Shown: piece by piece, positions 3,097 to 35,441 of the stretch | How the letters are laid out: every line of letters starts with the position of its first letter | Numbering within the stretch: the first letter of the stretch is position 1 | Assembly: GCA_947462335.1 (NCBI GenBank) | Contig: OX381710.1 | Coordinates: 25,079,772 to 25,143,771 of the forward strand | Direction: 5' to 3' | Length of the DNA stretch: 64,000 nucleotides | Source: Harmothoe impar | Taxonomy: Eukaryota; Annelida; Polychaeta; Phyllodocida; Polynoidae | The notes under the pieces: generated by a model | Told to the model about the DNA's origin: nothing | Seen by the model: only the letters and a program-made list of their open reading frames with translations | Database searches by the model: none | Position numbers and translations under genes: made by a program

Positions 3097-3757
3097 TGTC
3101 CACCACAGCCACCACGCAGGCAGCTGTTGGAGGCCCACCACAGCCACCACGCAGGCAGCTGTTGGAGGCCCACCACAGCCACCACGCAGGCAGCTGTTGG
3201 AGTCCCACCACAGCCACCACGCAGGCAGCTGTTGGAGGCCCACCACAGCCACCACGCAGGCAGCTGTTGGAGGCCCACCACAGCCACCACGCAGGCAGCT
3301 GTTGGAGGCCCACCACAGCCACCATGCAGGCAGCTGTTGGAGGCCCACCACAGCCACCACAGGCAGCTGTTGGAGGCCCACCACAGCCACCACACAGACA
3401 GATCTCTGTTGGAGGCCCACCACAGTCACCACAGGCAGCTGTTGGAGGCCCACCACAGCCACCACAGGCAGCTGTTGGAGGCCCACCACAGCCACCACAG
3501 CCACCACAGGCAGCTGTTGGAGGCTCACCACAGTCGCCACAGGCAGCTGTTGGAGGCCCACCACAGCCACCACAGGCAGCTGTTGGAGGCCCACCACAGC
3601 CACCACACAGGCAGCTGTTGGAGGCCCACCACAGCCACCACACAGGCAGCTGTTGGAGGCCCACCACAGCCACCACGCAGGCAGCTGTTGGAGGCCCACC
3701 ACAGCCCCCACGCAGGCAGCTGTTGGAGGCCCACCACAACCACAACACAAGCAGCTG
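3097..3757. repeat. Minisatellite, 33-37-bp unit, about 20 copies
   Basis: Tandem copies of a unit built around GCAGGCAGCTGTTGG followed by AGGCCCACCACAGCCACCAC. Units are 35 bp at the left (with ACGCAGG), 33 bp in the middle (CCACAGG) and up to 37 bp where CACACAGG occurs; one copy carries an inserted AGATCTCT near 3400. The array lacks stop codons in several frames on both strands. It therefore yields long His/Pro/Gln-rich or Ala/Val-rich frames, which I regard as by-products of the repeat. Confidence 0.9.
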
Positions 3758-6412: not shown

Positions 6413-6880
6413 CTATGTATCATATGTAATAGGGTCCAGAGAAGCCATCCAATTCGAGTATCGTAGGCCCTACGTAGGCGCCCCTACTTATTTTATCAAG
6501 TATCTAAGGGGAAGCCGATTAAAGTCCATAAAGGTATGAGAAACCGCAGAAGTACAGGTACTGTATCCTTGCTATTAACAGTTTTAAACATGCGTTTACC
6601 TAGCAGGTATGATAGCATGGCATAGGGTCCAATGGAGTCATATACTCTGACATATTACCCAGGTATGTCATGCAATACGTCTCGGGGGCACCTGGTTTCT
6701 GACAGTCAAACTACCAGATTCTTTAACGAATTCTTTTTCTTTATAAATCAGAAGCTAATGTAGGGATTTGGAACAACGTCCTTCCCTTCCCTTCGGGGGT
6801 GTCATTAATTCCTAGGGCATCTCCTGAAAACTCACAATAAATGGGCTACGATAAAAAATTTAAATAAAAGTTTTACTCAC

Positions 6881-7287
6881 TTTGAATATACTCTGCAATG
6901 TAGCTTGTTAACCTTGTTATCCGACTTATAGCGGCGGTAGTCCTCAAAGCCATCCTTTAAACATGTAACCGCTAACACGAATATCACCGGTATCATGGCC
7001 ACCTCCTTGCCAAACGCGTTCACCTGTGGCACCCAGTTCAGCAGTACCACGAAGATAAAGTACAGGTTGGCGAATCTATGGAACTGCTCGAACATGTTCT
7101 TGGGTAGGAAGGAGAGGAGGGTGTATTTGGTGGTTTTTATACGGTTGGTGAGGTATTTGTGGTTGGGTCGCTCTCGCTCCGGGAGCTCGTCAGAGTAGAG
7201 GTGGTTGGGCACGACTCGTCGGTGGTTAGTCGGAGTCTTGGTGTTACCCGAACTCTTCTGGAGTCGCTTCTTGAGTATGTTTCCCAT
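6881..7287 (-). CDS. First coding exon of an ATP10-type P4-ATPase (phospholipid flippase), partial
   Basis: The minus-strand frame starts with ATG at 7287 in a strong Kozak context (ACCATGG) and gives 135 whole codons. The exon ends at 6881 with donor GTGAGT (6880-6875), phase 2. Residues 49-64 carry [16 protein letters not shown] and residues 66-77 [12 protein letters not shown], hallmarks of P4-ATPases just before the first membrane segment. Residues about 72-92 and 96-112 look like membrane helices 1 and 2. From memory, the wording is closest to the ATP10 group, which moves phospholipids from the outer to the inner membrane leaflet with a CDC50 partner. Full ATP10 proteins have about 1,400-1,500 residues, so only about a tenth is present. 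The actuator domain, the catalytic DKTGT site and all other exons must lie left of the window or in introns I could not resolve. Assignment to a particular ATP10 paralogue is not possible. Confidence 0.88.
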
Positions 7288-8436
7288 GGTGAATAAATGT
7301 GTATTAATCCAATCCTAGTGTTGCTGAAATAACAAATGATGAAGGGATTAACTCTCAATCGGTCGGATTAGCCCAGTGACTGCTGTAATAGTGGAACCTC
7401 CTACAGACATGTATAAACTATAATACCAGCTTAATCTTGACGATGACACAGCAGGATTTACATAGGTCGCATTTGAGATATTGATTAGCACACTAAAAGT
7501 CACATGGCAAGTTGTCTGAGTAATTCCGGAAAAAAAGGAGGTCAAAGTGTTTTTTTCCCCACCAAATTATAAACATACTTATGTCAATAGATATATGATA
7601 GTGTACCGGGGTATTCTATATCATAAAGATCTACTTGTCTAAGTTCCCATTCATGTGTACGGTAGGTCGATAAAACATAAGGTTGAGAAAACCTTATCAG
7701 CATGAGTACCTGTACAAAGGTCTGGGGAGATAAGACTGACCTCAACCTTCAGTTTTACCTGAGAGTCTGCGTGGGATTACATTCATTATTCACCACGTCA
7801 CTGATATTAAAGATAAGATATCAAGACACACACGCTGTCGCAAGGACGCCTCCCTAGAAACCAGGCCAACTACCCATATATAGCAGCCATAAGATATCGA
7901 CCTTTCAATAAGTTAAACTTTTATCTAAAACTAAGGGGAGTGCTACCATCTTTAAACAATTTGGCCATGGGTTGGGTCAAAACAAACGTAACCCACAACT
8001 GCCACAAGTGGCTTTATACTCCATCAGCCCCTTCTAATATATCCATCTGTATGCTTTGTTGCTGTAGGTAGAATAAATCTTTTGAGAGTGGTAACAAATA
8101 ATCTGCACAGTAGGAGGAGGCTATAGTAGGAGTATAGACTATATATAACAACTACTTAAACAAGTACATGGGGCAGGGAATACCAGGTACCTCATATACT
8201 CAAATACTAGAAAAATAGTTGATATAGACTAGATCATGCAATGTCAATGATATACATCCAAGATTCCAAGCTGGATCAAGCTGGATCAAGCAGTCGAGAG
8301 TTCAATACCGGTAGTTTCAATAAATTGATTAAAATCAAATCAAATGACCACTTCCCTATACTCCCCAGGTTTCTAATTTTTTAGTCTGGAATAACATGTA
8401 TTAACCCCCAAACTATTATGATACAACCAACAATAA
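7288..8436. other. 5' region of the ATP10-like gene, no recognisable gene
   Basis: This stretch lies upstream of the minus-strand ATP10-like start codon and must include its 5' UTR or promoter, perhaps with an upstream intron. I see no clear TATA box, CpG cluster or conserved site. A short direct duplication, CAAGCTGGATCAAG, occurs near 8267-8290. Confidence 0.4.
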
Positions 8437-8914: not shown

Positions 8915-10085
8915 CACCCATGACTCTTGCCTTGGCCTCTTTGCCGAGGTTTGACCTCACTCCGGTCACCTGATTTGCTCCTTCACTTCAGCTCTTCTGC
9001 CTTGGTTTTCCCGGCATACGAAAACCCAGGATATCAATGGAAATTACCTTCGGAGTCTCTGCAGACTCAGTCCTTGCAGCCAAGAGAAGCCTCTGTAGAT
9101 GGGGGTGACACGAATCCACAAACGGTGACCGACTTGGGAGGCACGTCAGTCGCCCGTCTAGTCCGACACAGCTTCACCGAGCGAGGTGGGGGAGAGGCAG
9201 CTCGCGTTTCCACTTTCGGGGAAAGGTTCACGAGTTGGGAGTCAATAAAACACATCAAATCCTAACTGAATCCAAGGTTGGTGCCCTCAGATTAAGGCAA
9301 CAACCCGCAGCTCTTAAACGGCGTCACCATGCTTGTTTCGGAGGAGTTTTCTAGCCCAAAATCCCAGTCCTCATCGTAGAGAAATTGAAATCCTTCCTTC
9401 CAACTCGGCGACTCGCTGCTTTCTGACGTCTAAGTGCACGCGTACTGAGGATCGAGATTGCTACGTTCGCTGGGCCCCCCACGTCAAAACTAATAATGTA
9501 AACAAAGGAACTCACCATTTTTGATCTAAAAAGTGGCTTTTTAACTCGTACATTTCTATCAAAATGAATTTCAAGATGTGTTTAGACATTTCTCAGACTA
9601 TTGCATCCTCTATTGCAGTAGTTGTCATATCTTTTCTCCTTTTTTCTCTTCGCCAAACTTTTTATTGACTAGCGGGGGCTCTCATGCTGTCTTCAAGCAC
9701 ATAGTAGGTGCAGAACCTACACTGGCGTCCAGTGCGTCCCATATTGCTATGGAGAAAGCTGGAGCAGAGACAGCACAGAGAACCACTGGGAATCCACATA
9801 TCTGTTAGGAGAGTGAATACACATCGGAGAGAGCGAGATTAAAAGAAATATTTCGTATATAATCAAACATCTATGTGCAGCAAAGTAAAATAAATTGTAT
9901 GAGTGAAGTAGAGATACTCTTAAAGTTCATGCATTCACAATTATTTTCATATTTTTATTGAAAAATCTTTCCAACTTTATCATTCATGTTTTAAAATTCT
10001 GTCTAAAAGTTGTAATCTTGTTTCGATCACAAGTAACAGAGGTCAAGGTCAGATCGAAAATCGAGCAGCAAGACAAGACGACAGC
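8915..10085. other. Region upstream of TIMM8, promoter not resolved
   Basis: The stretch has relatively GC-rich parts at 8990-9260 and 9420-9490 that could hold regulatory DNA. A 112-codon frame at 8927-9265 matches no family I know and ends beside an AATAAA at 9245, so I do not call it a gene. No TATA box is evident near the TIMM8 start. The bases just before 10086 (CAAGACGACAGC) would be its 5' UTR. Confidence 0.4.
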
Positions 10086-10340
10086 ATGGCTTCTCAAACA
10101 GATAAAGTCGATCCTGAATTGCAGGAATTCCTCATGATGGAGCAACAGAAAGCCCAGCTGCAGGGGACGATTCACTCCATGACGGACACGTGTTGGGATA
10201 TGTGTGTTGACAAGCCCCGTGACAAAATGGACTACAGAACAGAGGCCTGTGTCACCAACTGTGTTGACCGGTTCATTGACACCACCCTCCAAATCACACA
10301 ACGTTTCCAACAAATGCTCGGACGGGCCGGCGGCCACTAG
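10086..10340 (+). CDS. TIMM8: TIMM8, small Tim chaperone of the mitochondrial intermembrane space
   Basis: A complete 84-residue protein with the small-Tim signature: twin CX3C motifs at C36-C40 and C55-C59, separated by 14 residues. The segments DPELQEF (9-15), MTDTCWDMCVDKP (32-44) and EACVTNCVDRFIDT (53-66) match the Tim8/DDP group closely as I remember it. In that family Tim8 pairs with Tim13 in a 70-kDa hexamer. The hexamer shields hydrophobic precursors such as Tim23 on their way to the inner membrane, and the cysteines form disulfides after Mia40-dependent import. There is no N-terminal presequence, as expected. The start is the only in-frame ATG before the conserved core. The frame has no intron here, whereas vertebrate TIMM8 genes are split, so it is either an intronless gene or a retrocopy. 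The intact frame, with no poly-A trace near the stop, favours a working gene. Whether it is closer to TIMM8A or TIMM8B cannot be said. Confidence 0.93.
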   Translation: MASQTDKVDPELQEFLMMEQQKAQLQGTIHSMTDTCWDMCVDKPRDKMDYRTEACVTNCVDRFIDTTLQITQRFQQMLGRAGGH

Positions 10341-11827
10341 GACTTTGTCAAATATAGGATAATATAGAGACTCTTTGCCGAAGTTAAAGCCTCGAGAAAG
10401 AGGCCGGAATCATGGCAAATTACTATAAATGTGATCACAATTGAGATCAGGGGCAATGCTAGCCTATAGACTTATAATTTTATATAACAATATTAATAAC
10501 ATGGCAGGGGCCGGGGTAGGGTTAAATTTCCAAAACCAGTCAGGGAAAGGAGCATTTTCCTAGCCTAGGCCATGGAACTGCCTAGCCCTGACCTTACATA
10601 CTGATTATCTGATAAAGATGACCCTGGCCTATGGCTATGCCAAGCTATGTCTAAGGCACAGATCAAAACTAGGTTTTGACCATCATTCATTGTATCAAGC
10701 CTAGTTTCTTACCCAGGTTATGGATAGGCCTACTCTTGGAATGAAAGATACGATTACAAACATTGTCCAAAGAAAACTGGTATGCAACTGCTCCGCATGG
10801 ACTTTCACATGAGCTGCACTCTTCATAGTAATCATAGAATCATATTTACATGGACACACATGACAAGCCGAGCACAAGCAGCAACCTGGAATCATCATTA
10901 AGTCCTGATAACAGTAATATTAACAATGGAAAGAAGTGGACAAAAAAACAACAACATTCAAAACGCTTTAAAAACACAAAATGGACACATCAGTTAGCAT
11001 TACTTTAGACCAAGTACGTAGCATATTACATATATCTATGCTACCGTACGATATCTATGCTTCCATGTGAATTCTTACGGAAAAGGGAGAAAGTGATAGA
11101 TCAATCTAGAATTTTCTGATGTAGCCTAGATCTCTAGGCCTGAGGAAACTAGCATCTTGCATCACAATTTTTTAGAAATTCTACCTGATATGAACATATA
11201 ATCATTACAACGGGACGATAGACACTATAGATTTCACTCGCTTTGTGTCGATTGCTATTTAGTATTTGCTTTTGTCCATGCTAAATCGAAATCGTGTTAT
11301 GATAAATCTAGCTCGTACATGTGTGTCAGAGCAGAAATAATGGTAATGACCAGCGTATCATAACTAGCCCATTAAAGGTCATCTATGGTCCATACTCTAA
11401 TAAACAACACATATATACCGTTTTCTGAAGTTATGTCTCTCTCCATTGTCTTCTCATCCATTTTACCATGGACGTCAATATACTGAGATATTTAGATTCA
11501 TGATTATGTATACGTCACTATCATTACCGTATTCTACGTAATAAGGGCCCTGGGCGCGTATAAAATTATTTTGTATGACGTTTTTAGTACTGTAAAAGGA
11601 CTAGGGCAAGACAAGTACTCAATAAATCACAACAAGGACACCAATCCAATTAAAGTTGAGATCTGTATATTATCAATTCAATGAAGGTACAAGGTCATCT
11701 ATTTGGTGTAGTGAGGGCTAAGCTAAAGGTTGGCACGTCAGCACACTTTGGCTGGTTGGACAAGACTGATCCGCCAACCCCGCGGCGGACCGTTATATAG
11801 GGGTGGCGGATGCCGCGCGCCATCTAG
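10341..11827. other. Intergenic stretch downstream of TIMM8
   Basis: No gene is seen. No AATAAA lies close behind the TIMM8 stop; the first clear one is near 11620. Around 11527-11600 the sequence TACCGTATTCTACGTAATAAG resembles the inverted end of the small element at 25616-25790. Near 11765-11815, GATCCGCC and GGCGGAT motifs occur that also appear right of the nested insertion at 25460-25505. Confidence 0.4.
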
Positions 11828-11926
11828 GTGCCTCTACATGGGTACCCACATAATTGACCATGTCGCCGTGTCGATTTTTAGCAAGAAGGCCGTGTCGCCG
11901 TGTCGATTTTTAAGTATGTAGAATAT

Positions 11927-12209
11927 TGTAATGGGGAAATGGAGACTAGGAAGAGAAGACAAAACGCAGTACTGTTGTAAACAAAGGTAGTTCTCTATTG
12001 ACAGAATCAGGTATGTACATTTATCATCAATCATCAATCATCTATCATCTATCATCAGAGCACATCTGTCCATCATCATGGTGAGTCATAGACTGGCGGA
12101 TCCTGCTCCTGCAGGCCCTTTTATAGACAGGCCTCTGGTGGTGCCACCTAGTGGGCAGATCAGCACCAGAATCCGCACCAGATCCGCACCAGAATCCGCC
12201 ACCACTACA
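11927..12209 (-). repeat. 3' LTR of the retrotransposon (283 bp)
   Basis: Identical to the 5' LTR at 25036-25325 except for the absence of one 7-bp copy in the CATCTAT run. On the minus strand it begins TGTAGTGG and ends CATTACA. It contains TATAAAA (plus coordinates 12119-12125). The last 165 bases of the Gag frame run into it. Confidence 0.92.
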
Positions 12210-13571
12210 CTCTCCCCTGCTCAAACCAAACTCAGGGGTCTTCTTTTGATGTCGCTCCAGGGGATCCTGGTCCCTTCTTCTTTGCTCCAGTGAATCGGTT
12301 GCCCCGGCCCACCGGATCTTTCCCCAAGGGGTACTGGATCTTCGATCTTTCTCCCGAAGGGTACTGGATCTCGGTGACAGTTTCCGGCTCCTCATTTGAT
12401 GTTGTTGCCCTAGATCTTCTCCACTATGCTTTGTGCCAGTGACTTTTCTGTAGCTCCCCACCGGATCTTTCCCCAAAGGGTACTGGATCTTCGATCTTTC
12501 CCCCGAAGGGTACTGGATCTCGGTGAGAGTTTCTGGTTCCTCATTTGATGTTGCCCGCGATCTTCTCCACTTGGCCTTGCCCCAGTGAAACTTCTTTCCA
12601 TTGGTTACCCTTCTTCTCATGGGCTCTGATGGTTTGTCAGTTAAGCACATCCTGACCCAGCGAGCTGGTTCACTGACTAAAGGTCCTGATGGAGCAGCCA
12701 GGTTTCTACCATCACTGGTCCAGAGGGGGCAATCCTTCTTCAAGTGATCATCTTTTGCACAATGGAAACACCGCTTCTGTTTCCTTCTTGAGCATGACTT
12801 CCCTGGCTGTGTCTGAACCCTCTTGGAGATATCCACCACTTCCTTTGGGTATGTCTCTACTTCCAATTCCACGTTGGTCAGCTCCTCTGCCTTGGTCTGG
12901 TCAGCTACCCTTGTCGCCTTGTCACTTGCATATATGCAGGCCTCTGCATGCAGACCAACTCTTACAGCTTCTGCCAGTGTTCTGGGGCCGCTCTGCTGGA
13001 TCCATAACTGCAACTGGATGTTCGATAAGCTGTCAATGAACCAGTCCATGGCCATTACATCTATGGTAGAGAGGTCAGCCCTAGGATAGGCTAACCTAGT
13101 CAGCCTCTCCACTTCCTCTGAGTGGCTTTGGAGACATTCACCCACCTCTCTCTTCTTCTCACGAAGCAGTGCCTTAAACATGGCTGACTGATTCGGGGGT
13201 TGAAACCTCTGAATTAAGGCCTCCCTCAGCTGGAGATAACCTCTGGGGTTTTTGTAGTCAAAACCCACCAGTAGACGCCTAGCTATACCAGTAAGACTCA
13301 GCCCTAGGAACACACCTGCTACTTCATGGTTCCACCCATTAGCACGGCAGCAAAGGTCAAAGTGTAGGAGGTACACATTTAGATGCTCACTTCCATCGAA
13401 CTTGTCTGGCATAACTATGGGCTTAGGTAGTTTGTCGACAGATTGCCATTCCCGCAACTCCCCCAGCAATGCCTCAGGACTGCATCTCCCAACCTCTGGG
13501 AACGCCTCGGTACCACATCTCCCCACTTCCAGCAACGCCTCAGTGGCATGACTCCTCGCCTGTGGGAACAT
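12045..13571 (-). CDS. gag: Gag-like nucleocapsid protein of the LTR retrotransposon
   Basis: The open frame of 508 codons encodes a retrotransposon Gag. Residues about 47-215 form a helical capsid-like region. It starts near MPDKFDG (residue 54) and includes RGYLQLREALIQRF (110-123), a layout common to LTR-element Gag proteins. One zinc knuckle of CX2CX4HX4C form lies at C268, C271, H276 and C281, after a basic stretch, and would bind the element's RNA. The first ATG sits exactly at the edge of the 25-bp array, so the natural start is uncertain. After about residue 340 the DNA contains two copies of a 149-bp direct duplication (12461 and 12312). Since 149 is not a multiple of three, the second copy is read in another frame, and the tail then runs into the 3' LTR. 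The last 120 or so residues may therefore not be original Gag. No pol follows. A Metaviridae-like (Gypsy) origin is an inference. Confidence 0.8.
   Translation of the reverse strand: MFPQARSHATEALLEVGRCGTEAFPEVGRCSPEALLGELREWQSVDKLPKPIVMPDKFDGSEHLNVYLLHFDLCCRANGWNHEVAGVFLGLSLTGIARRLLVGFDYKNPRGYLQLREALIQRFQPPNQSAMFKALLREKKREVGECLQSHSEEVERLTRLAYPRADLSTIDVMAMDWFIDSLSNIQLQLWIQQSGPRTLAEAVRVGLHAEACIYASDKATRVADQTKAEELTNVELEVETYPKEVVDISKRVQTQPGKSCSRRKQKRCFHCAKDDHLKKDCPLWTSDGRNLAAPSGPLVSEPARWVRMCLTDKPSEPMRRRVTNGKKFHWGKAKWRRSRATSNEEPETLTEIQYPSGERSKIQYPLGKDPVGSYRKVTGTKHSGEDLGQQHQMRSRKLSPRSSTLREKDRRSSTPWGKIRWAGATDSLEQRRRDQDPLERHQKKTPEFGLSRGECSGGGFWCGSGADSGADLPTRWHHQRPVYKRACRSRIRQSMTHHDDGQMCSDDR
12119..12125 (-). 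promoter_or_regulatory. TATA box in the 3' LTR
   Basis: TATAAAA followed by GGGCC on the minus strand, in the middle of the LTR; it is the same site as at 25234-25240. In this copy it would fire outward into the flanking MITE. Confidence 0.6.
12210..12221 (-). promoter_or_regulatory. Polypurine tract of the LTR retrotransposon
   Basis: On the minus strand the bases directly before the 3' LTR are AGCAGGGGAGAG, a purine run in the place where plus-strand DNA synthesis is primed in LTR elements. Confidence 0.7.
12312..12560. repeat. 149-bp tandem duplication inside the Gag frame
   Basis: CCGGATCTTTCCCCAA and the following 90 or so bases at 12312 recur at 12461 with few differences, including the paired motifs GGGTACTGGATCTTCGATC. 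The 149-bp step changes the reading frame between the two copies. Confidence 0.8.
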
Positions 13572-14170
13572 CTCGGTCAGCGTGCGGTACCCTGGTCTCG
13601 GTCAGCTTGCGGCACCCCGGTCTCGGTCAGCGTGCAGCACCCCCTTCTCTGTCAGCATGCGGCACCCCCGTCTCGGTCAGCGTGCGGCACCCCCTTCTCT
13701 GTCAGCATGCGGCACCCCGGTCTCGGTCAGCGTGCAGCACCCCCTTCTCTGTCAGCATGCGGCACCCCCTTCTCTGTCAGCATGCGGCACCCCCTTCTCG
13801 GTCAGCGTGCGGCACCAGCTTGCGGCACCCCCGTCTCGGTCAGCGTGCGGCACCCCCGTCTCGGTCAGCGTGCGGCACCCCCGTCTCGGTCAGCGTGCGG
13901 CACCCCCCTCTCGGTCAGTGTGCGCCACCCCCTTCTCCGTCAGAGTGCGCCACCCCCGTCTCGGTCAGCTTGCGGCAACCCCGTCTCGGTCAGCATGCGG
14001 CACCCCCGTCTCGGTCAGCGTGCGGCACCCCCGTCTCGGTCAGCGTGCAGCATCCCCGTCTCGGTCAGCATGCGGCACCCCCGTCTCGGTCAGCGTGCGG
14101 CACCCCCTTCTCTGTCAGCGTGCGACACCCCCGTCTCGGTCAGCGTGCGGCACCAGCTTTCAGCACCCCT

Positions 14171-17100
14171 GTCTCGGTCAGCATGCAGCACCCCCGTCTC
14201 GGTCAGCGTGCGGCGACCCCGTCTCGGTCAGCGTGCGGCACCAGCTTGCGGCACCCCCGTCTCGGTCAGCGTGCGGCACCCCCGTCTCGGTCAGCGTGCG
14301 GCACCCCCGTCTCGGTCAGCGTGCGGCACCCCCGTCTCGGTCAGCGTGCGGCACCCCCGTCTCGGTCAGCGTGCGGCACCCCCTTCTCTGTCAGCGTGCG
14401 ACACCCCCGTCTCGGTCAGCGTGCGGCACCAGCTTTCAGCACCCCTGTCTCGGTCAGCGTGCAGCACCCCCGTCTCGGTCAGCGTGCGGCGACCCCGTCT
14501 CGGTCAGCGTGCGGCACCAGCTTGCGGCACCCCCGTCTCGGTCAGCGTGCGGCACCCCCGTCTCGGTCAGCGTGCGGCACCCCCGTCTCGGTCAGCGTGC
14601 GGCACCCCCCTCTTGGTCAGCGTGCGCCACCCCCTTCTCCGTCAGAGTGCGCCACCCCTGTCTCGGTCAGCTTGCGGCAACCCCGTCTCGGTCAGCATGC
14701 GGCACCCCCGTCTCGGTCAGCGTGCGGCACCCCCGTCTCGGTCAGCGTGCAGCATCCCCGTCTCGGTCAGCGTGCGGCACCCCCGTCTCGGTCAGCGTGC
14801 GGCACCCCCTTCTCTGTCAGCGTGCGACACCCCCGTCTCGGTCAGCGTGCGGCACCAGCTTTCAGCACCCCTGTCTCGGTCAGCATGCAGCACCCCCGTC
14901 TCGGTCAGCGTGCGGCGACCCCGTCTGGGTCAGCGTGCGGCACCAGCTTGCGGCACCCCCGTCTCGGTCAGCATGCGGCACCCCAGTCTCGGTCAGCGTG
15001 CGGCACCCCCGTCTCGGTCAGCGTGCGGCACCCCCGTCTCCGTCAGCGTGCGGCACCCCCGTCTTGGTCAGCGTGCGGCACCCCCCTCTTGGTCAGCGTG
15101 CGCCACCCCCTTCTCCGTCAGAGTGCGACACCCCCGTCTCGGTCAGCTTGCGGCACCCCCGTCTTGGTCAGCATGCGGCACCCCGTCTCGGTCAGAGTGC
15201 GGCACCCCCGTCTCGGTCAGCGTGCGGCACCCCGATCTCGGTCAGCGTGCGGCACCCCCTTCTCTGTCAGCGTGCGACACCCCCGTCTCGGTCAGCGTGC
15301 GGCACCAGCTTTCAGCACCCCTGTCTCGGTCAGCGTGCAGCACCCCCGTCTCAGTCAGCGTGCGGCAACCCAGTCTCGGTCAGCGTGCGGCACCAGCTTG
15401 CGGCACCCCCGTCTCGGTCAGCATGCGGCACCCCCGTCTCGGTCAGCGTGCGGCACCCCCTTCTCGGTCAGCGTGCGGCACCCCCGTCTCGGTCAGCGTG
15501 CGGCACCCCCCTCTTGGTCAGCGTGCGCCACCCCCTTCTCCGTCAGAGTGCGACACCCCCGTCTCGGTCAGCTTGCGGCACCCCCGTCTCGGTCAGCATG
15601 CCGCACCCCCGTCTCGGTCAGCGTGCGGCACCCCCGTCTCCGTCAGCGTGCGGCACCCCCGTCTCGGTCAGAGTGCGCCACCCCCTTCTCCGTCAGAGTG
15701 CGACACCCCCTTCTCCGTCAGAGTGCGACACCCCAGTCTCGGTCAGCGTGCGGCACCAACTTGCGGCACCCCCGTCTCGGTCAGCATGCGGCACCCCCGT
15801 CTCGGTCAGCGTGCGGCACCCCCGTCTCGGTCTGTGTGCCGCACCCCCTCTTGGTCAGCTCGCGGCACCCCCTTCTCCGTCAGAGTGCGACACCCCCGTC
15901 TCGGTCAGCGTGCGGCACCATCTTGCGGCACCCCCGTCTCGGTCAGCATGCGGCAACCCCGTCTCGGTCAGCGTGCGGCACCCCCGTCTCGGTCAGAGTG
16001 CGGCACCCCTGTCTTGGTCAGCTTGCGGCATCCCTGTCTCGGTCAGCATGCGGCACCAGCTTGCGGCACCCCCGTCTCGGTCAGCGTGCGGCACCCCCGT
16101 CTCGGTCAGCGTGCAGCACCCCCCTCTTGGTCAGCGTGCGGCACCCCCTTCTCCGTCAGAGGGCGACACCCCCGTCTCGGTCAGCGTGCGGCACCAACTT
16201 GCGGCACCCCCGTCTCGGTCAGCATGCAACAACCCCGTCTCGGTCAGCGTGCGGCACACCCGTCTCGGTCAGCATGCGGCAACCCCGTCTCGGTCAGCGT
16301 GCGGCACCCCCGTCTCGGTCAGAGTGCGGCACCCCTGTCTTGGTCAGCTTGCGGCATCCCCGTCTCGGTCAGCATGCGGCACCAGCTTGCGGCACCCCCG
16401 TCTCGGTCAGCGTGCGGCACCCCCGTCTCGGTCAGCGTGCGGCACCCCCGTCTCAGTCAGCGTGCGGCAACCCCGTCTCGGTCAGCGTGCGGCACCAGCT
16501 TGCGGCACCCCCGTCTCGGTCAGCATGCGGCACCCCCGTCTCGGTCAGCGTGCGGCACCCCCTTCTCGGTCAGCGTGCGGCACCCCCGTCTCGGTCAGCG
16601 TGCGGCACCCCCCTCTTGGTCAGCGTGCGCCACCCCCTTCTCCGTCAGAGTGCGACACCCCCGTCTCGGTCAGCTTGCGGCACCCCCGTCTCGGTCAGCA
16701 TGCCGCACCCCCGTCTCGGTCAGCGTGCGGCACCCCCGTCTCCGTCAGCGTGCGGCACCCCCGTCTCGGTCAGAGTGCGCCACCCCCTTCTCCGTCAGAG
16801 TGCGACACCCCCTTCTCCGTCAGAGTGCGACACCCCAGTCTCGGTCAGCGTGCGGCACCAACTTGCGGCACCCCCGTCTCGGTCAGCATGCGGCACCCCC
16901 GTCTCGGTCAGCGTGCGGCACCCCCGTCTCGGTCTGTGTGCCGCACCCCCTCTTGGTCAGCTCGCGGCACCCCCTTTTCCGTCAGAGTGCGACACCCCCG
17001 TCTCGGTCAGCGTGCGGCACCATCTTGCGGCACCCCCGTCTCGGTCAGCATGCGGCAACCCCGTCTCGGTCAGCGTGCGGCACCCCCGTCTCGGTCAGAG

Positions 17101-20100
17101 TGCGGCACCCCTGTCTTGGTCAGCTTGCGGCATCCCTGTCTCGGTCAGCATGCGGCACCAGCTTGCGGCACCCCCGTCTCGGTCAGCGTGCGGCACCCCC
17201 GTCTCGGTCAGCGTGCAGCACCCCCCTCTTGGTCAGCGTGCGGCACCCCCTTCTCCGTCAGAGGGCGACACCCCCGTCTCGGTCAGCGTGCGGCACCAAC
17301 TTGCGGCACCCCCGTCTCGGTCAGCATGCAACAACCCCGTCTCGGTCAGCGTGCGGCACACCCGTCTCGGTCAGCATGCGGCAACCCCGTCTCGGTCAGC
17401 GTGCGGCACCCCCGTCTCGGTCAGAGTGCGGCACCCCTGTCTTGGTCAGCTTGCGGCATCCCCGTCTCGGTCAGCATGCGGCACCAGCTTGCGGCACCCC
17501 CGTCTCGGTCAGCGTGCGGCACCCCCGTCTCGGTCAGCGTGCGGCACCCCCGTCTCGGTCAGTGTGCGGCAGCCCCCTCTTGGTCAGCGTGCGGCACCCC
17601 CTTCTCTGTCAGAGTGCGACACCCCCGTCTCGGTCAGCGTGCGGCACCAACTTGCGGCACCCCCGTCTCGGTCAGCATGCGGCAACCCCGTCTCGGTCAG
17701 CGTGCGGCACCCCCCTCTTGGTCAGCGTGCGCCACCCCCTTCTCCGTCAGAGTGCGACACCCCTGTCTCGGTCAGCTTGCGGCACCCCCGTCTCGGTCAG
17801 CATGCGGCACCCCCGTCTCGGTCAGCGTGCGGCACCCCCGTCTCCGTCAGCGTGCGGCACCCCCGTCTCAGTCAGCGTGCGGCACCCCTGTCTCAGTCAG
17901 AGTGCAGCACCCCTGTCTCGGTCGGCTTGCGGCATCCCCGTCTCGGTCAGCATGCGGCACCAGCTTGCGGCACCCCCGTCTCGGTCAGCGTGCAGCACTT
18001 CCGTCTCGGTCAGCGTGCGGCACCCCTTCTCCGTCAGAGTGCGACACCCCCGTCTCGGTCAGCGTGCGGCATCCCCTTCTCGGTCAGCGTGCGGCAACCC
18101 CGTCTCGGTCAGCGTGCGGCATCCCCTTCTCGGTCAGCGTGCGGCAACCCCGTCTCGGTCAGCATGCAGCACCCCCGTCTCGGTCAGCGTGCGGCGACCC
18201 CGTCTCGGTCAGCGTGCGGCACCAGCTTGCGGCACCCCCGTCTCGGTCAGCGTGCGGCACCCCCGTCTCGGTCAGCGTGCGGCACCCCCGTCTCGGTCAG
18301 CGTGCGGCACCCCCGTCTCGGTCAGCGTGCGGCACCCCCGTCTCGGTCAGCGTGCGGCACCCCCTTCTCTGTCAGCGTGCGACACCCCCGTCTCGGTCAG
18401 CGTGCGGCACCAGCTTTCAGCACCCCTGTCTCGGTCAGCGTGCAGCACCCCCGTCTCGGTCAGCGTGCGGCGACCCCGTCTCGGTCAGCGTGCGGCACCA
18501 GCTTGCGGCACCCCCGTCTCGGTCAGCGTGCGGCACCCCCGTCTCGGTCAGCGTGCGGCACCCCCGTCTCGGTCAGCGTGCGGCACCCCCCTCTTGGTCA
18601 GCGTGCGCCACCCCCTTCTCCGTCAGAGTGCGCCACCCCTGTCTCGGTCAGCTTGCGGCAACCCCGTCTCGGTCAGCATGCGGCACCCCCGTCTCGGTCA
18701 GCGTGCGGCACCCCCGTCTCGGTCAGCGTGCAGCATCCCCGTCTCGGTCAGCGTGCGGCACCCCCGTCTCGGTCAGCGTGCGGCACCCCCTTCTCTGTCA
18801 GCGTGCGACACCCCCGTCTCGGTCAGCGTGCGGCACCAGCTTTCAGCACCCCTGTCTCGGTCAGCATGCAGCACCCCCGTCTCGGTCAGCGTGCGGCGAC
18901 CCCGTCTCGGTCAGCGTGCGGCACCAGCTTGCGGCACCCCCGTCTCGGTCAGCATGCGGCACCCCAGTCTCGGTCAGCGTGCGGCACCCCCGTCTCGGTC
19001 AGCGTGCGGCACCCCCGTCTCCGTCAGCGTGCGGCACCCCCGTCTTGGTCAGCGTGCGGCACCCCCCTCTTGGTCAGCGTGCGCCACCCCCTTCTCCGTC
19101 AGAGTGCGACACCCCCGTCTCGGTCAGCTTGCGGCACCCCCGTCTTGGTCAGCATGCGGCACCCCGTCTCGGTCAGAGTGCGGCACCCCCGTCTCGGTCA
19201 GCGTGCGGCACCCCGATCTCGGTCAGCGTGCGGCACCCCCTTCTCTGTCAGCGTGCGACACCCCCGTCTCGGTCAGCGTGCGGCACCAGCTTTCAGCACC
19301 CCTGTCTCGGTCAGCGTGCAGCACCCCCGTCTCAGTCAGCGTGCGGCAACCCAGTCTCGGTCAGCGTGCGGCACCAGCTTGCGGCACCCCCGTCTCGGTC
19401 AGCATGCGGCACCCCCGTCTCGGTCAGCGTGCGGCACCCCCTTCTCGGTCAGCGTGCGGCACCCCCGTCTCGGTCAGCGTGCGGCACCCCCCTCTTGGTC
19501 AGCGTGCGCCACCCCCTTCTCCGTCAGAGTGCGACACCCCCGTCTCGGTCAGCTTGCGGCACCCCCGTCTCGGTCAGCATGCCGCACCCCCGTCTCGGTC
19601 AGCGTGCGGCACCCCCGTCTCCGTCAGCGTGCGGCACCCCCGTCTCGGTCAGAGTGCGCCACCCCCTTCTCCGTCAGAGTGCGACACCCCCTTCTCCGTC
19701 AGAGTGCGACACCCCAGTCTCGGTCAGCGTGCGGCACCAACTTGCGGCACCCCCGTCTCGGTCAGCATGCGGCACCCCCGTCTCGGTCAGCGTGCGGCAC
19801 CCCCGTCTCGGTCTGTGTGCCGCACCCCCTCTTGGTCAGCTCGCGGCACCCCCTTCTCCGTCAGAGTGCGACACCCCCGTCTCGGTCAGCGTGCGGCACC
19901 ATCTTGCGGCACCCCCGTCTCGGTCAGCATGCGGCAACCCCGTCTCGGTCAGCGTGCGGCACCCCCGTCTCGGTCAGAGTGCGGCACCCCTGTCTTGGTC
20001 AGCTTGCGGCATCCCTGTCTCGGTCAGCATGCGGCACCAGCTTGCGGCACCCCCGTCTCGGTCAGCGTGCGGCACCCCCGTCTCGGTCAGCGTGCAGCAC

Positions 20101-22103
20101 CCCCCTCTTGGTCAGCGTGCGGCACCCCCTTCTCCGTCAGAGGGCGACACCCCCGTCTCGGTCAGCGTGCGGCACCAACTTGCGGCACCCCCGTCTCGGT
20201 CAGCATGCAACAACCCCGTCTCGGTCAGCGTGCGGCACACCCGTCTCGGTCAGCATGCGGCAACCCCGTCTCGGTCAGCGTGCGGCACCCCCGTCTCGGT
20301 CAGAGTGCGGCACCCCTGTCTTGGTCAGCTTGCGGCATCCCCGTCTCGGTCAGCATGCGGCACCAGCTTGCGGCACCCCCGTCTCGGTCAGCGTGCGGCA
20401 CCCCCGTCTCGGTCAGCGTGCGGCACCCCCGTCTCAGTCAGCGTGCGGCAACCCCGTCTCGGTCAGCGTGCGGCACCAGCTTGCGGCACCCCCGTCTCGG
20501 TCAGCATGCGGCACCCCCGTCTCGGTCAGCGTGCGGCACCCCCTTCTCGGTCAGCGTGCGGCACCCCCGTCTCGGTCAGCGTGCGGCACCCCCCTCTTGG
20601 TCAGCGTGCGCCACCCCCTTCTCCGTCAGAGTGCGACACCCCCGTCTCGGTCAGCTTGCGGCACCCCCGTCTCGGTCAGCATGCCGCACCCCCGTCTCGG
20701 TCAGCGTGCGGCACCCCCGTCTCCGTCAGCGTGCGGCACCCCCGTCTCGGTCAGAGTGCGCCACCCCCTTCTCCGTCAGAGTGCGACACCCCCTTCTCCG
20801 TCAGAGTGCGACACCCCAGTCTCGGTCAGCGTGCGGCACCAACTTGCGGCACCCCCGTCTCGGTCAGCATGCGGCACCCCCGTCTCGGTCAGCGTGCGGC
20901 ACCCCCGTCTCGGTCTGTGTGCCGCACCCCCTCTTGGTCAGCTCGCGGCACCCCCTTTTCCGTCAGAGTGCGACACCCCCGTCTCGGTCAGCGTGCGGCA
21001 CCATCTTGCGGCACCCCCGTCTCGGTCAGCATGCGGCAACCCCGTCTCGGTCAGCGTGCGGCACCCCCGTCTCGGTCAGAGTGCGGCACCCCTGTCTTGG
21101 TCAGCTTGCGGCATCCCTGTCTCGGTCAGCATGCGGCACCAGCTTGCGGCACCCCCGTCTCGGTCAGCGTGCGGCACCCCCGTCTCGGTCAGCGTGCAGC
21201 ACCCCCCTCTTGGTCAGCGTGCGGCACCCCCTTCTCCGTCAGAGGGCGACACCCCCGTCTCGGTCAGCGTGCGGCACCAACTTGCGGCACCCCCGTCTCG
21301 GTCAGCATGCAACAACCCCGTCTCGGTCAGCGTGCGGCACACCCGTCTCGGTCAGCATGCGGCAACCCCGTCTCGGTCAGCGTGCGGCACCCCCGTCTCG
21401 GTCAGAGTGCGGCACCCCTGTCTTGGTCAGCTTGCGGCATCCCCGTCTCGGTCAGCATGCGGCACCAGCTTGCGGCACCCCCGTCTCGGTCAGCGTGCGG
21501 CACCCCCGTCTCGGTCAGCGTGCGGCACCCCCGTCTCGGTCAGTGTGCGGCAGCCCCCTCTTGGTCAGCGTGCGGCACCCCCTTCTCTGTCAGAGTGCGA
21601 CACCCCCGTCTCGGTCAGCGTGCGGCACCAACTTGCGGCACCCCCGTCTCGGTCAGCATGCGGCAACCCCGTCTCGGTCAGCGTGCGGCACCCCCCTCTT
21701 GGTCAGCGTGCGCCACCCCCTTCTCCGTCAGAGTGCGACACCCCTGTCTCGGTCAGCTTGCGGCACCCCCGTCTCGGTCAGCATGCGGCACCCCCGTCTC
21801 GGTCAGCGTGCGGCACCCCCGTCTCCGTCAGCGTGCGGCACCCCCGTCTCAGTCAGCGTGCGGCACCCCTGTCTCAGTCAGAGTGCAGCACCCCTGTCTC
21901 GGTCGGCTTGCGGCATCCCCGTCTCGGTCAGCATGCGGCACCAGCTTGCGGCACCCCCGTCTCGGTCAGCGTGCAGCACTTCCGTCTCGGTCAGCGTGCG
22001 GCACCCCTTCTCCGTCAGAGTGCGACACCCCCGTCTCGGTCAGCGTGCGGCATCCCCTTCTCGGTCAGCGTGCGGCAACCCCGTCTCGGTCAGCGTGCGG
22101 CAC
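14171..22103. repeat. Two near-identical 3,981-bp higher-order copies within the 25-bp array
   Basis: A rare variant unit containing TCTGTGTGCC occurs at 15831, 16933, 19812 and 20914. The spacings 15831 to 19812 and 16933 to 20914 are both 3,981 bp, and GCATGCAGCA at 14181 recurs at 18162 with the same step. The copies span about 14171-18151 and 18152-22103. I found one clear difference: GTCTGGG near 14932 against GTCTCGG at the matching place. Confidence 0.9.
15322..17525. repeat. 1,102-bp tandem duplication nested inside each 3,981-bp copy
   Basis: TCTGTGTGCC at 15831 and 16933 marks a 1,102-bp step, and the flanking order of variant units agrees on both sides. The approximate limits are 15322-16423 and 16424-17525. 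The same pair recurs 3,981 bp to the right. Confidence 0.8.
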
Positions 22104-23959
22104 CCCCGTCTCGGTCAGCGTGCGGTGACCCCGTCTCGGTCAGCGTGCGGCACCCCCCTCTCGGTCAGCTTGCAGAGACCCCGTCTCGGTCAGCGTGGGG
22201 CATCCCCGTCTCGGTCAGCCTGCTGCACCCCCGTCTCGGTCAGCCTGCAGCACCAGCTTGCGGCGCCCCCGTCTCGGTCAGCGTGCAGCACTTCCGTCTC
22301 AGTCAGCGTGCGGCACCCCCTTCTCCGTCCGAGTGTGACACCCCCGTCTCGGTCAGCGTGCGGCACCCCCGTCTCGGTCAGCTTGCGGCACCAGCTTGCG
22401 GCACCCCAGTCTCGGTCAGCGTGCAGCACCCCCTTATCTGTCGGCTTGCGGCACCCCTTCTCCGTCAGTGTGCGGCAACCCCGTCTCGGTCAGCATGCGG
22501 CACCCCCGTCTCGGTCAGCGTGCAGCACTTCCGTCTCGGTCAGCGTGCGGAACCCCGTCTCGGTCAGCGTGCGGAAACCCCGTCTCGGACAGTGTGCAGG
22601 ACCCCTGTCTAGGTCAGCTTGCGGCACCACCTTGCGGCACCCCCGTCTCGGTCAGCGTGCGGCACCCCCGTCTTGGTCAGCGTGCGGCACCCCTGTCTCG
22701 TCAGCCTGCGACATCCCCGTCTCGGTCAGCGTGCGACATCCCCGTCTCGGTCAGCGTGCGGCACCAGCTTGCGGCACCCCCGTCTTGGTCAGCGTGCAGC
22801 ACTTCCGTCTCGGTCAGCGTGCGGCACCCCTTCTCCGTCAGAGTGCGACACCCCCGTCTCGATCAGCGTGCGGCATCCCCTTCTCGGTCAGCGTGCGGCA
22901 ACCTCCTCTCGGTCAGCGTGCGGCACCCCCGTCTCGGTCAGCGTGCGGCGACCCCGTCTCGGTCAGCGTGCGGCACCCCTGTCTCGGTCAGCGTGCGGCG
23001 ACCCTGTCTCAGCTTGCGGCACCCCCGTCTCGGTCAGCGTGCGGCACCCCCGTCTCGGTCAGCCTGCGGCACCCCCGTCTCGGTCAGCGTGCGGCACCAG
23101 CTTGCGGCACCCCCGGCTCGGTCAGCATGCGGCACCCCCGTCTCGGTCAGCGTGCGGCACCCCCGTCTCGGTCAGTGTGCGGCACCCCCGTCTCGGTCAG
23201 CGTGGGGCACCCCCGTCTCGGTCAGCGTGCGGCACCCCCGTCTCGGTCAGCGTGCGGCACCCCCGTCTCGGTCAGCGTGCGGCACCCCCGTCCCGGTCAA
23301 CTTGTGGCACCCCCTTTTCCGTCAGAGTGCGACACCCCCGTCTCGGTCAGCCTGCGGCACCAGCTTGCGGCAACCCGGTCTCTGTCAGCGTAGGGCACCC
23401 CCTCCTCTGTCAGCTTGCGGCACCCCCTTCTCTGTCAGAGCGCGACACCCCCGTCTCGGTCAGTGTGCGGCACCCCCTTCTCGGTCAGCATGCGGCACCC
23501 CCGTCTCGGTCAGCGTGCGGCACCCCGTCTTGGTCAGTGTGTGGCACCCCAGTCTCGGTCAGCAAGCTGAAACCCAGTAACGGACAGCGTGCGGCACCCC
23601 TGTCTAGGTCAGCGTGCGGCACCACCTTGCGGCACGCCCGTCTTGGTCAGCGTGCGGCACCCCCGTCTCGGTTAGCGTGCGGCACCCCCGTCTCGGTCAG
23701 AGTGCGGCACCCCCGTCTCGGTCAGCATGTGACACCCCTGTCTCGGTCAGCGTGCGGCACCAGCTTGCGGCACCCCCGTCTCGGTCAGCGTGCGGCACCC
23801 ACGTCTCGGTCAGCGTGCGGCATCCCCGTCTCGGTCAGCGTGCGGCACCCCCGTCTCGGTCAGCGTGCGGCACCCCCGTCTCGGTCAGCGTGCGGCACCC
23901 CCGTCTCGGTCAGCGTGCGGCACCCCCGTCTCGGTCAGCGTGCGACACCCCCGTCTCGG

Positions 23960-25035
23960 CTCCTGCTGGCGGATTCACTTCCTGCCAGCGGATCGGAGGG
24001 ATCAGCGGATCGGCGGATCTAAGTTGCTAAGCAACCAGCTTCCATTTGTACACCACACTCTTCTTTCTCATAGAGTCAGGATTTCGTCCATGATTTCTTC
24101 CAGAGACACAACTTCCCACTGTCTTCACAGCGACCACAGAGTTGTGTTCACAACAACCACAGAGTTGTCTTTACAACGACCACAGAGTTCCCTTTCCATG
24201 GACCACAGAGTTGTCTTCACAACGACCACAGTGTTGTCTTCACAACGACCACAGAGTTGTCTTCACAACGACCACAGAATCGTCCTTCCAACAGCAACAG
24301 AATCGTCCTTCCAACAGCAACAGAATCGTCCTTCCCTCTTCTTCCCTTTCCTTCTTCTCGGTCCTGCTTCCTGCTGGCAGATCTGGCGGATCTGGCGGAT
24401 CTGGCGGATCTGGCGGATCCGGCGGATCGGCGGATCGGAGTTGCTAAGCAACCGGCTTCCATTTGTTTACTGCTGGCGGATTCAGCCTCCTGCTGGCGGA
24501 TTTAAATTCTTGTAGGATCGTCCTATAAACAGCCACATAATCGTCATCCTTAGGGCCCCAGAATTGTCCTCTTGAGGGCCACACAATCGTCGTTATAACG
24601 GCCACAGAAACGTCTTCACAACAGCAACAGAATCATCTTCAAATCTGCGACAGAAACGTCTTCACAACACCCACAGAAACCTCTTCACCACAACGGATTC
24701 AGCTTCCTGCTGGCGGATTCAACTTCCTGTTGGCGGATCTGGCGGATCTGGCGGATTGGCGGATCTAAGTTGCTAAGCAACCAGCTTGCACTTGTTTACT
24801 CCTCCTTCTAGAAGAGTTACGATTTCGTCCATGATTTCCACCCACAGAATCGTGCTTCCAACGGTCACAGAGTCGTCTTTCCAACGGCCACAGAATCGTC
24901 CTTCCAATAGTCACAAAGTCGTCCTTCCAATGGCCACACAATCGTCCTTCCCACAGCAACAGAATCGTCCTTCCTTCTCTCTTTTCCTCCTTCCCTCCGG
25001 CGTGTGTTCTTCTTTTGAAACCAAGCTGTCACCAC
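23960..25035 (-). repeat. Repeat-rich leader of the LTR retrotransposon
   Basis: Between the array and the 5' LTR there are three degenerate blocks. Each has GGCGGATC repeats (clearest at 24378-24440), then GTTGCTAAGCAAC (24023-24035, 24440-24452, 24769-24781), then a series of about 24-bp units around CCACAGAATCGTCCTTCCAA or CCACAGAGTTGTCTTCACAA. The GTTGCTAAGCAAC motif is an inverted repeat with one central base and resembles the X-box bound by RFX factors. No convincing reading frame is present. Confidence 0.75.
25021..25034 (-). promoter_or_regulatory. Candidate primer-binding site of the LTR retrotransposon
   Basis: One base inside the 5' LTR the minus strand reads TGGTGACAGCTTGG. It starts with TGG, the complement of a tRNA 3' CCA end. 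The tRNA species was not identified. Confidence 0.45.
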
Positions 25036-25325
25036 TGTAATGGGGAAATGGAGACTAGGAAGAGAAGACAAAACGCAGTACTGTTGTAAACAAAGGTAGT
25101 TCTCTATTGACAGAATCAGGTATGTACATTTATCATCAATCATCAATCATCTATCATCTATCATCTATCATCAGAGCACATCTGTCCATCATCATGGTGA
25201 GTCATAGACTGGCGGATCCTGCTCCTGCAGGCCCTTTTATAGACAGGCCTCTGGTGGTGCCACCTAGTGGGCAGATCAGCACCAGAATCCGCACCAGATC
25301 CGCACCAGAATCCGCCACCACTACA
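25036..25325 (-). repeat. 5' LTR of the retrotransposon (290 bp)
   Basis: Same sequence as the 3' LTR plus one extra 7-bp step. It begins TGTAGTGG and ends CATTACA on the minus strand. TATAAAA lies at 25240-25234, so transcription toward lower coordinates would start in the middle of this LTR and read leader, satellite and Gag. Confidence 0.92.
25234..25240 (-). promoter_or_regulatory. TATA box in the 5' LTR
   Basis: TATAAAAGGGCC on the minus strand, the expected promoter for the retrotransposon RNA. Confidence 0.65.
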
Positions 25326-25505
25326 ATATACTAGGGGTCTATAAGAAGGTCTGTGTCCGTCGATTTTTAAAAGGGCCGTGTCGCCCGTGTCGATTTTTAA
25401 AACGGCCGTGTCGCCGTGTCGCCCATGTCGATTTTTACCCATGTAGAGGCACATCTAGCGGGATCCGCCAGATCCGCCAGGTGACGAAGGATCCGCCACA
25501 GATCC

Positions 25506-25760
25506 GCCACTCCCACTACAGTACTTAACAGTTTAATTGTCTCCAAAATCGTGAAATTTGAGCCTTTGTTCTAGTCTAAAAATGCTCCAAAAGGGGAAGG
25601 GGGGGGGGCTTATTACCGTATTCGACGTAATCCAGGGCGCTTATAAAATTATTTTTATGGCGTTTTAAGTACTTAAGAGTTTAATTGTCTCCAAAATTGG
25701 GAAATCTGAGCCTTTGTTCTAGTCTGAAAATTCCCTAAAAAGGGGGGGGGGCGCTTATTA
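25506..25760. repeat. About 155-bp tandem duplication next to the nested insertion
   Basis: GTACTTAACAGTTTAATTGT with the following 80 bases (about 25518-25605) recurs at about 25669-25755 as GTACTTAAGAGTTTAATTGT. Both copies contain TTTGTTCTAGTCT and end in a G run followed by CTTATTA. Confidence 0.75.
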
Positions 25761-34792: not shown

Positions 34793-34826
34793 TTCAATCT
34801 TTATTTCAGGCTGATGTCGGCCATCA

Positions 34827-35441
34827 TTGATCAGCTTACTATACATTCCAGGCCCAGTGTTCGTACAGGTAGATAGACCTGGTTACAAATACTTCCAAGT
34901 AACTCGTAAACACAAACATCCCAACGCCAGGAGGGCTTCTGGTGGCATGGGGATATTAATATCAAAAGAACTTGAAGGTTGTATACAGCTACGCATTATG
35001 TCAGACTTTTTTATACTGATCCGTTTTGTTTCTAAACATTTTTGTTTTGCACGGGACTTGGTGGTAGGTGCTATTTATATACCACCAGAGGGATCTACTT
35101 ACAGAGCAGAAAATGATAACTATTTTGAAATAATATCTGAACAAATCGGTGCACTTGAACATCAAGATATAGATCTTATACTGTGTGGCGATTTAAACGC
35201 ACGCACTTCATCAGTGAATGAGCTTAGTTCAAACTCACTAAAGCTAGTCACAGGTACCTTGTCAACTGAGAGAGAGTCCATTGATAAAACTGTAAATAAT
35301 AATGGTAAAGAGCTTATCCAGCTATGTAAGGATATGGATATGGTTATACTGAATGGTAGAATGCCAGAGGTTAACAACACAGGTGGTTTTACATGCTATA
35401 CGGCTAATGGTCAAAGTGTGGTTGACTATGTACTATGTTAG
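34827..35441 (+). pseudogene. LINE endonuclease domain, 5'-truncated and cut by a stop
   Basis: The frame shows an apurinic-type endonuclease domain of a non-LTR retrotransposon: GGMGILISKELEG, then AIYIPPEGS, then LILCGDLNARTSS with the catalytic Asp-Asn pair. The N-terminal part with the conserved Glu is missing, so the element is 5'-truncated near 34850. A TAG at 35439-35441 ends the frame. The next frame (35469) is in the same phase and starts with the missing end of the domain (LLPDSDHTPLTF). The break is thus a single nonsense codon, not a frameshift. Confidence 0.85.

Follow-up and report, generated by a model that had tools for sequence, protein, structure and literature searches.

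The 64-kb window of the Harmothoe impar genome analysed here (contig OX381710.1; "window" denotes this whole stretch) contains, on its minus strand, a single inserted long terminal repeat (LTR) element of 13.4 kb, with exact boundaries at positions 11927 and 25325, of which 77.5% is a 25-bp tandem array located between the leader and a gag gene. The family to which it belongs is, with little doubt, a young, mobile, Gag-only LTR carrier of this satellite. Overall, we interpret it as a non-autonomous Ty3/gypsy-type family that uses the enzymes of pol-bearing relatives, a reading to which we assign a probability of roughly three in four.

In its own sense the element consists of a 5' LTR, a primer site, a 1.1-kb leader, the 25-bp array, Gag, a polypurine tract and a 3' LTR; the right LTR is the 5' LTR, since Gag is encoded on the minus strand. 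The two LTRs are equal at 283 of 283 aligned positions with one 7-bp gap, end in TG..CA, and have ATAT on each flank. An empty paralogous site (L027:6277-6500) aligns with the joined flanks, one ATAT removed, over 224 bp at 87% identity and with no gaps. Because this uninterrupted paralogue of the target spans the junction, the 13.4 kb must have been inserted in one piece. The host of the insertion is an older repeat with GTGTCGCCGTGTCGATTTTTA sub-repeats (window 11700-11926 and 25326-25520), of which L027:6277-6500 is another copy. The first-pass annotation of this DNA had described matching LTRs with an ATAT duplication, a polypurine tract, a TATA box, a Gag with a CCHC knuckle but no pol, and a satellite of about 415 copies filling three quarters of the element. 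All of this was recovered, the tract being GGGGAGAG, the box TATAAAA, the Gag open reading frame (ORF) 508 residues long and the array 415.6 units, which are 88% identical to the 25-bp unit. A scan for tRNA genes in 28 loci and the window, made to name the primer, gave a single tRNA-Ala only; tRNA-Leu may be the primer.

A genome search with the LTR gave 41 matches (40 of 125 candidates scored), from which 17 loci (L009-L025) were fetched, making 18 copies on 11 contigs together with the window. All 18 carry the 25-bp array, on the 5' side of Gag wherever Gag is present and in a single orientation, with zero opposite-strand matches to the unit across copies. The array covers from 1,555 bp (L011) to 10,391 bp (the window copy, which is the longest), and the internal regions measure 4.6-12.8 kb, 62-89% of which is tandem repeat. 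Gag is present in 13 of the 18. The remaining five (L018-L022), in which the longest sense ORF reaches 129 amino acids, consist mostly of tandem repeats; besides variants of the 25-bp unit, these include arrays with periods of 34 and 23 bp. The copy-to-copy comparison proposed in the first-pass annotation thus gave a family in which every examined member bears the array, at lengths varying from 1.6 to 10.4 kb.

In the 15 copies whose fetched piece includes both LTRs, the two differ by 0-5 substitutions, with none in seven, and four pairs (L009, L013, L015 and L024) are free of both substitutions and gaps. Matching 4-bp duplications flank 16 of 17 copies, namely 14 of the 15 two-LTR copies, where L020 fails, together with L016 and L025; L023, whose 5' LTR is truncated, was excluded from the count. 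They read GTAT, ATAT, CTAT, ATAC, GTAG or ATAG, that is, a narrow target preference. The junction of LTR and primer site is exact in 17 of 18 copies, L020 having one mismatch, and CTCTCCCC directly adjoins the 3' LTR in 13 of the 15 two-LTR copies, L014 and L017 representing a shifted estimate of the LTR edge. A chimeric 5' LTR in L025 was considered and rejected, as an insertion of about 4.7 kb, LINE-like (long interspersed nuclear element) by eye only, follows the first 20 or so bases, with the remainder of the LTR and the ATAC duplication beyond it.

No match to pol was found in any of the 18 copies by tblastn with the pol of a relative as query, whereas the control was found. Residues 50-222 of Gag model as a retro-capsid, so that the Gag has the capsid fold and CCHC knuckle of Ty3/gypsy elements, but the pol order of reverse transcriptase, RNase H and integrase is lacking. 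As pol is absent from 18 of 18 copies and present in a relative with a similar Gag, the family is best classed as a non-autonomous derivative and not as an autonomous Ty3/gypsy member. Judged by the ratio of nonsynonymous to synonymous differences (pN/pS), Gag is under purifying selection in the testable copies: the ratio is 0.11-0.41 in 20 of the 21 pairs that exclude the frameshifted L023, the other pair (L024/L025) giving 0.56 from three changes. The seven pairs involving L023 give 0.56-0.76, and all 28 pooled give 0.42. L011 and L013 have about 1.2 kb of coding repeat resembling the 11-residue repeats in the N-terminus of the window Gag. A search by pattern for Gag relatives in viral contigs returned 21 and 30 stretches, none of them related.

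A genome search with the Gag protein (118 matches, 85 of 1,130 candidates scored) revealed two further groups. Group B comprises eight places 62-64% identical along Gag, the match reaching the LTR-embedded part, and group C has Gags 66-71% identical to the query, with the LTR-side end of the query at most about 30 bp after Gag in 10 of the 12 listed places and at most 130 bp in the other two. Since the Gag match continues to or adjoins the LTR-side end, there is no space for pol and both groups are Gag-only. For nine group B or C Gags a primer junction is also listed, at a distance of 2.4-5.0 kb on the upstream side. One 1-kb sample from the leader of a group C copy consists wholly of a 33-bp array (33.4 copies), in which the Gag frame is open for 357 codons of 11-residue repeats of the type RRGTEASQDAG, with one stop at the upstream end; one 1-kb sample of a group B leader consists partly of 20-21-bp and 44-bp repeats. 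These two 1-kb samples, slender as they are, suggest that tandem arrays have long tended to form in the leader and the Gag N-terminus. The N-terminus of a group C Gag at L046 (C1:7520400-7521500) is greatly extended by 11-residue repeats that a 33-bp minisatellite encodes, and group C open frames of up to 1,563 amino acids are listed. Elsewhere, at C15:9888628, a Gag match lies in an open frame of 2,267 amino acids, which may represent a Gag-Pol fusion or else a long Gag with repeats.

The pol-bearing partner with the same LTR ends and primer site, which the first-pass annotation had proposed to look for, was found. The LTR/primer junction pattern occurs at 283 genome places with at most two mismatches, against 12 for a reversed control. 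At C11:44715529 the 19-base junction is exact, a pol match lies 2.2 kb downstream on the same strand, the LTR is TGTAGCGG..CCATTACA, and a start codon is located 45 bases inside. A 566-residue protease-reverse transcriptase piece from a family with a 753-residue Gag frame, used as query, gave 78 genome matches (77 of 11,822 candidates scored), 60 at 92-100% identity and 18 at 75%. Within the 75% group three listed junctions differ at two primer bases and that at C11:44715529 is exact, the rest not being among those listed. Two of the pol matches of this 753-residue-Gag family, C7:38019041 and C7:38028930, have equal scores and lie about 9.9 kb apart, possibly as a tandem pair sharing an LTR or as a duplication. 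The family that provided the query, seen in one copy (C7:25452000-25454200 and 25456000-25459300), has an ATG in the 753-residue Gag frame 46 bases inside the 5' LTR, no array, a VDTGA that we take by eye to be the protease motif, and a downstream frame whose domains are, in sequence, reverse transcriptase, RNase H and integrase (L043). A further 37 listed junction places, including L020 and a group C copy, read GTAATAG. Of these, L044 was sampled: its start codon lies 49 bases inside, its Gag is related but broken, and a long array is lacking. The array is thus absent from the three relatives sampled just inside the primer site, where Gag starts 45-49 bases on. The pol-bearing Ty3/gypsy relatives are candidate helpers, and the satellite family probably depends on relatives like these.

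We propose that the RNA would run from the 5' LTR through leader and array to Gag, and that Gag made in cis or by sister copies would form the particles, with reverse transcriptase and integrase supplied in trans by an element whose LTR termini and primer site match. The full array would then presumably pass through RNA and reverse transcription. Jumps of the reverse transcriptase within or between co-packaged, repeat-rich templates could duplicate or delete kilobase blocks in a leader that tolerates them.

Duplicated blocks occur within the arrays themselves. In the window copy, two blocks of 3,951 bp that differ at a single position form a 3,981-bp tandem duplication, with a 1,102-bp duplication nested inside it; because of this near-identical duplication the exact array length is provisional, pending raw reads. 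Duplicated blocks of at least 250 bp at 99% identity also occur in L009, L014, L015, L016, L018, L019, L020, L024 and L025; the same method detected none in L010-L013, L017, L021 and L022, and only short-period runs in L023. Over 1,588 bases of LTR and Gag, L024 and L025 are nearly identical, yet their arrays measure 6.3 and 4.3 kb and differ in block order. L023, the nearest relative of the window copy, diverges from it by 1.3% in Gag but has an array of 2.0 kb instead of 10.4 kb, and the three closest Gag pairs (0.3-1.3%) have arrays 1.8-8.4 kb apart. Array length does not follow relatedness: across 78 Gag pairs, the length difference shows no correlation with Gag divergence (rho -0.16, p 0.15). 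Not all events are unit-to-unit exchange, since the 2,857-bp duplication of L016 has its junction between array and Gag, where the overlap is 1 bp. Furthermore, the LTR clade of L011, L024 and L025 (support 96/96), which was picked post hoc, is rejected by Gag in the approximately unbiased (AU) test (p-AU 4.9e-5). The conflict between the LTR and Gag trees suggests that copies have recombined, which co-packaging of RNAs would lead one to expect; gene conversion is an alternative.

Template switching is our preferred explanation for the array changes, at about even odds. Only a little less credible is that arrays change mostly after insertion, in chromosomal DNA, by unequal exchange or microhomology-driven repair, the element supplying a seed array. 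The variable number tandem repeat (VNTR) of LAVA and SVA elements is described in PMC4432496 as remodelled at the DNA level through microhomology, and the single mismatch in the window duplication fits a very recent event; the 1-bp overlap at the L016 junction is compatible with both mechanisms. With an array of at least 1.5 kb in all 18 copies and kilobase gaps between close kin, however, change in chromosomal DNA would have to be fast at every locus, and the conflict between the trees favours exchange between copies, although gene conversion could produce it as well. The same lone mismatch might also betray an assembly artefact in the array length or the large duplication. This is improbable, as arrays occur at 18 loci on 11 contigs with varying lengths and, where compared, varying block order, and the window and loci are free of Ns. 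The idea that solo LTRs merely flank an unrelated satellite locus, or that a satellite captured LTRs, can practically be dismissed. Solo LTRs with matching duplications do occur (L027, L031, L033), but the position and orientation of the array are constant in 18 of 18 copies, the LTRs are paired with matching duplications, and the empty site and the comparison of copies refute it. The satellite matches listed (the best of 880, with 30 of 31 regions scored) all lie within 15 of the 18 copies. The earlier suggestion that the element spreads satellite DNA accordingly holds in that the array moves with the element, but the listed matches lie only inside element copies; an array may still found a satellite elsewhere in the genome.

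A selected cis element, either a cluster of binding sites like the gypsy insulator or repeated packaging or dimerisation signals, is a less likely explanation of the array. Its presence in 18 of 18 copies in one orientation would suit such a role, and retroviral packaging signals occupy a similar place. The position also matches that of the Drosophila gypsy insulator in the 5' untranslated region, described in PMC2374998 as a 340-bp cluster of 12 Su(Hw) sites with known protein binding, whereas the array here is up to 10.4 kb long with putative sites only. Yet five folded stretches (one antisense) lacked excess RNA structure (z +0.2 to +1.4), the unit positions are in our reading about equally conserved, excluding the 12/13-bp deletion variant, position 8 and CpG positions, and the three sampled relatives do without an array. 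More speculative still is the reading in which the Gag-only lineage competes with its helpers for particles by multiplying a packaging or dimerisation signal; the leader array would be that amplified signal, and its length a fitness trait.

Several observations weigh against our overall interpretation. The LTR bodies of the sampled relatives, C11 included, could not be aligned to the LTR of the satellite family, the Gags of the pol-bearing families are only 47-60% identical to the window Gag over the capsid region, and the Gag of the C11 copy is not among the matches listed; with 85 of 1,130 Gag candidates scored, a closer helper may exist. The path from leader through array to Gag is 11.5 kb long and contains 92 ATGs, which makes cap-scanning to Gag unlikely; with 108 expected, the depletion of ATGs is weak. 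Neither a single LTR clade of the Gag-less copies (p 0.089) nor the grouping of L016 with its Gag kin (p 0.072) gave a significant result in AU tests, and the large duplications may have arisen at the DNA level.

Comparison with known elements places the family between several described types. TR-GAG elements of plants are non-autonomous and Gag-only, but small, about 4 kb or less; the present family has Gag in 13 and pol in none of 18 copies, while the window copy measures 13.4 kb, with large arrays and in an animal host. LARD elements are long and lack coding capacity, as do L018-L022 in having no long ORF, but these are mostly tandem repeats and share LTRs with Gag-bearing siblings such as the window copy. 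LTR elements with internal tandem repeats are already known, in the papers covered chiefly from plants and with the repeats downstream of pol. According to PMC7004042 and PMC11963269, the Ty3/gypsy-type Ogre, Tat and Retand elements have internal arrays that vary in length and sequence and are a source of satellites, and some copies lack pol; a strand-transfer hypothesis is given for Ogre/Tat (PMC7004042), and a 1995 Zea element with internal repeat clusters is cited in PMC11963269. Their arrays are, however, downstream of gag-pol and before the 3' LTR (in Retand between pol and the 3' LTR, PMC11963269), whereas ours are upstream of Gag. SVA and LAVA are likewise non-autonomous, mobilised in trans and equipped with a length-variable, GC-rich VNTR, which in LAVA sets mobilisation efficiency (PMC4432496), but they are non-LTR elements driven by LINE-1 and have no Gag. 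Barley BARE2 is a defective relative packaged in the particles of BARE1 (PMC3735527), an arrangement resembling that proposed for the satellite family; BARE2 cannot make Gag, whereas the satellite family keeps Gag and lacks pol. Satellite origins from transposable elements are reviewed in PMC9659126 and PMC12628747, whose accessible text names no animal LTR element with a kilobase leader array. Our literature search, with subscription journals mostly outside its coverage, found no published animal family of this kind. As far as the literature covered goes, the place and scale of the array, the animal host and the apparent persistence of a Gag-only lineage are new.

Table 1. Features of the satellite-bearing LTR element in the 64-kb window.
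Feature	Position	Strand	Basis
Target-site duplication ATAT, left	11923..11926	.	Sequence and empty site
3' LTR, 283 bp, TGTAGTGG..CCATTACA in element sense	11927..12209	-	LTR comparison
Gag ORF, 508 aa	12045..13571	-	ORF; C-terminal 54 residues and stop within 3' LTR
Polypurine tract GGGGAGAG	12210..12217	-	Adjoins inner edge of 3' LTR
Two 134-nt direct repeats, spacing 149, Gag 3' part	12271..12553	-	Repeat comparison
CCHC zinc knuckle CFHCAKDDHLKKDC	12729..12770	-	Sequence; 17 bits, under Pfam cut-off of 20.8
Gag capsid domain, residues 50-222	12906..13424	-	AlphaFold model and VIA-align
About three 11-aa (33-bp) coding repeats, Gag N-terminus	13452..13550	-	By eye
25-bp tandem array, 10,389 bp, 415.6 units, TGCGGCACCCCCGTCTCGGTCAGCG on + strand	13571..23959	-	
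Array segment tandemly duplicated at 18152-22102	14171..18121	-	Shift 3981, 1 mismatch
5' leader with 23-bp and 8/9-bp (GGCGGATC) tandem repeats	23960..25016	-	
Primer-binding region GTGGTGACAGCTTGGTTTC	25017..25035	-	LTR/primer junction pattern
5' LTR, 290 bp	25036..25325	-	LTR comparison
TATAAAA box in 5' LTR	25235..25241	-	Sequence
Target-site duplication ATAT, right	25326..25329	.	Sequence and empty site

Elsewhere in the window, host exons encode the N-terminus of a phospholipid-transporting ATPase (6880-7314, minus strand) and a Tim8-like protein (9924-10337, plus strand), and two adjacent open frames at 34815-38186 (plus strand), LINE-like in character, carry endonuclease and reverse transcriptase domains. 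Two other tandem repeats were found: a 35-bp repeat at 3100-3757 (18.8 copies, 91% matches) with several frames open, and a 53-bp repeat at 60178-61703 (28.8 copies, 95% matches), for which no link to the element was seen.

The family is a case of repeat DNA being moved around a genome by an element family, its length varying among copies. With 18 copies, arrays of 1.6-10.4 kb and some identical LTR pairs, it offers a young natural series in which the growth and dispersal of a satellite can be traced copy by copy in an animal. The Gag-only lineage appears to have persisted long enough to split into several groups, with Gag selected and pol apparently external. Two questions thereby become accessible to tests: whether tandem repeats expand through reverse transcription itself, and what makes non-autonomous elements retain Gag. 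If the packaging-signal reading were true, satellite DNA would be a by-product of a contest between parasite and helper elements.

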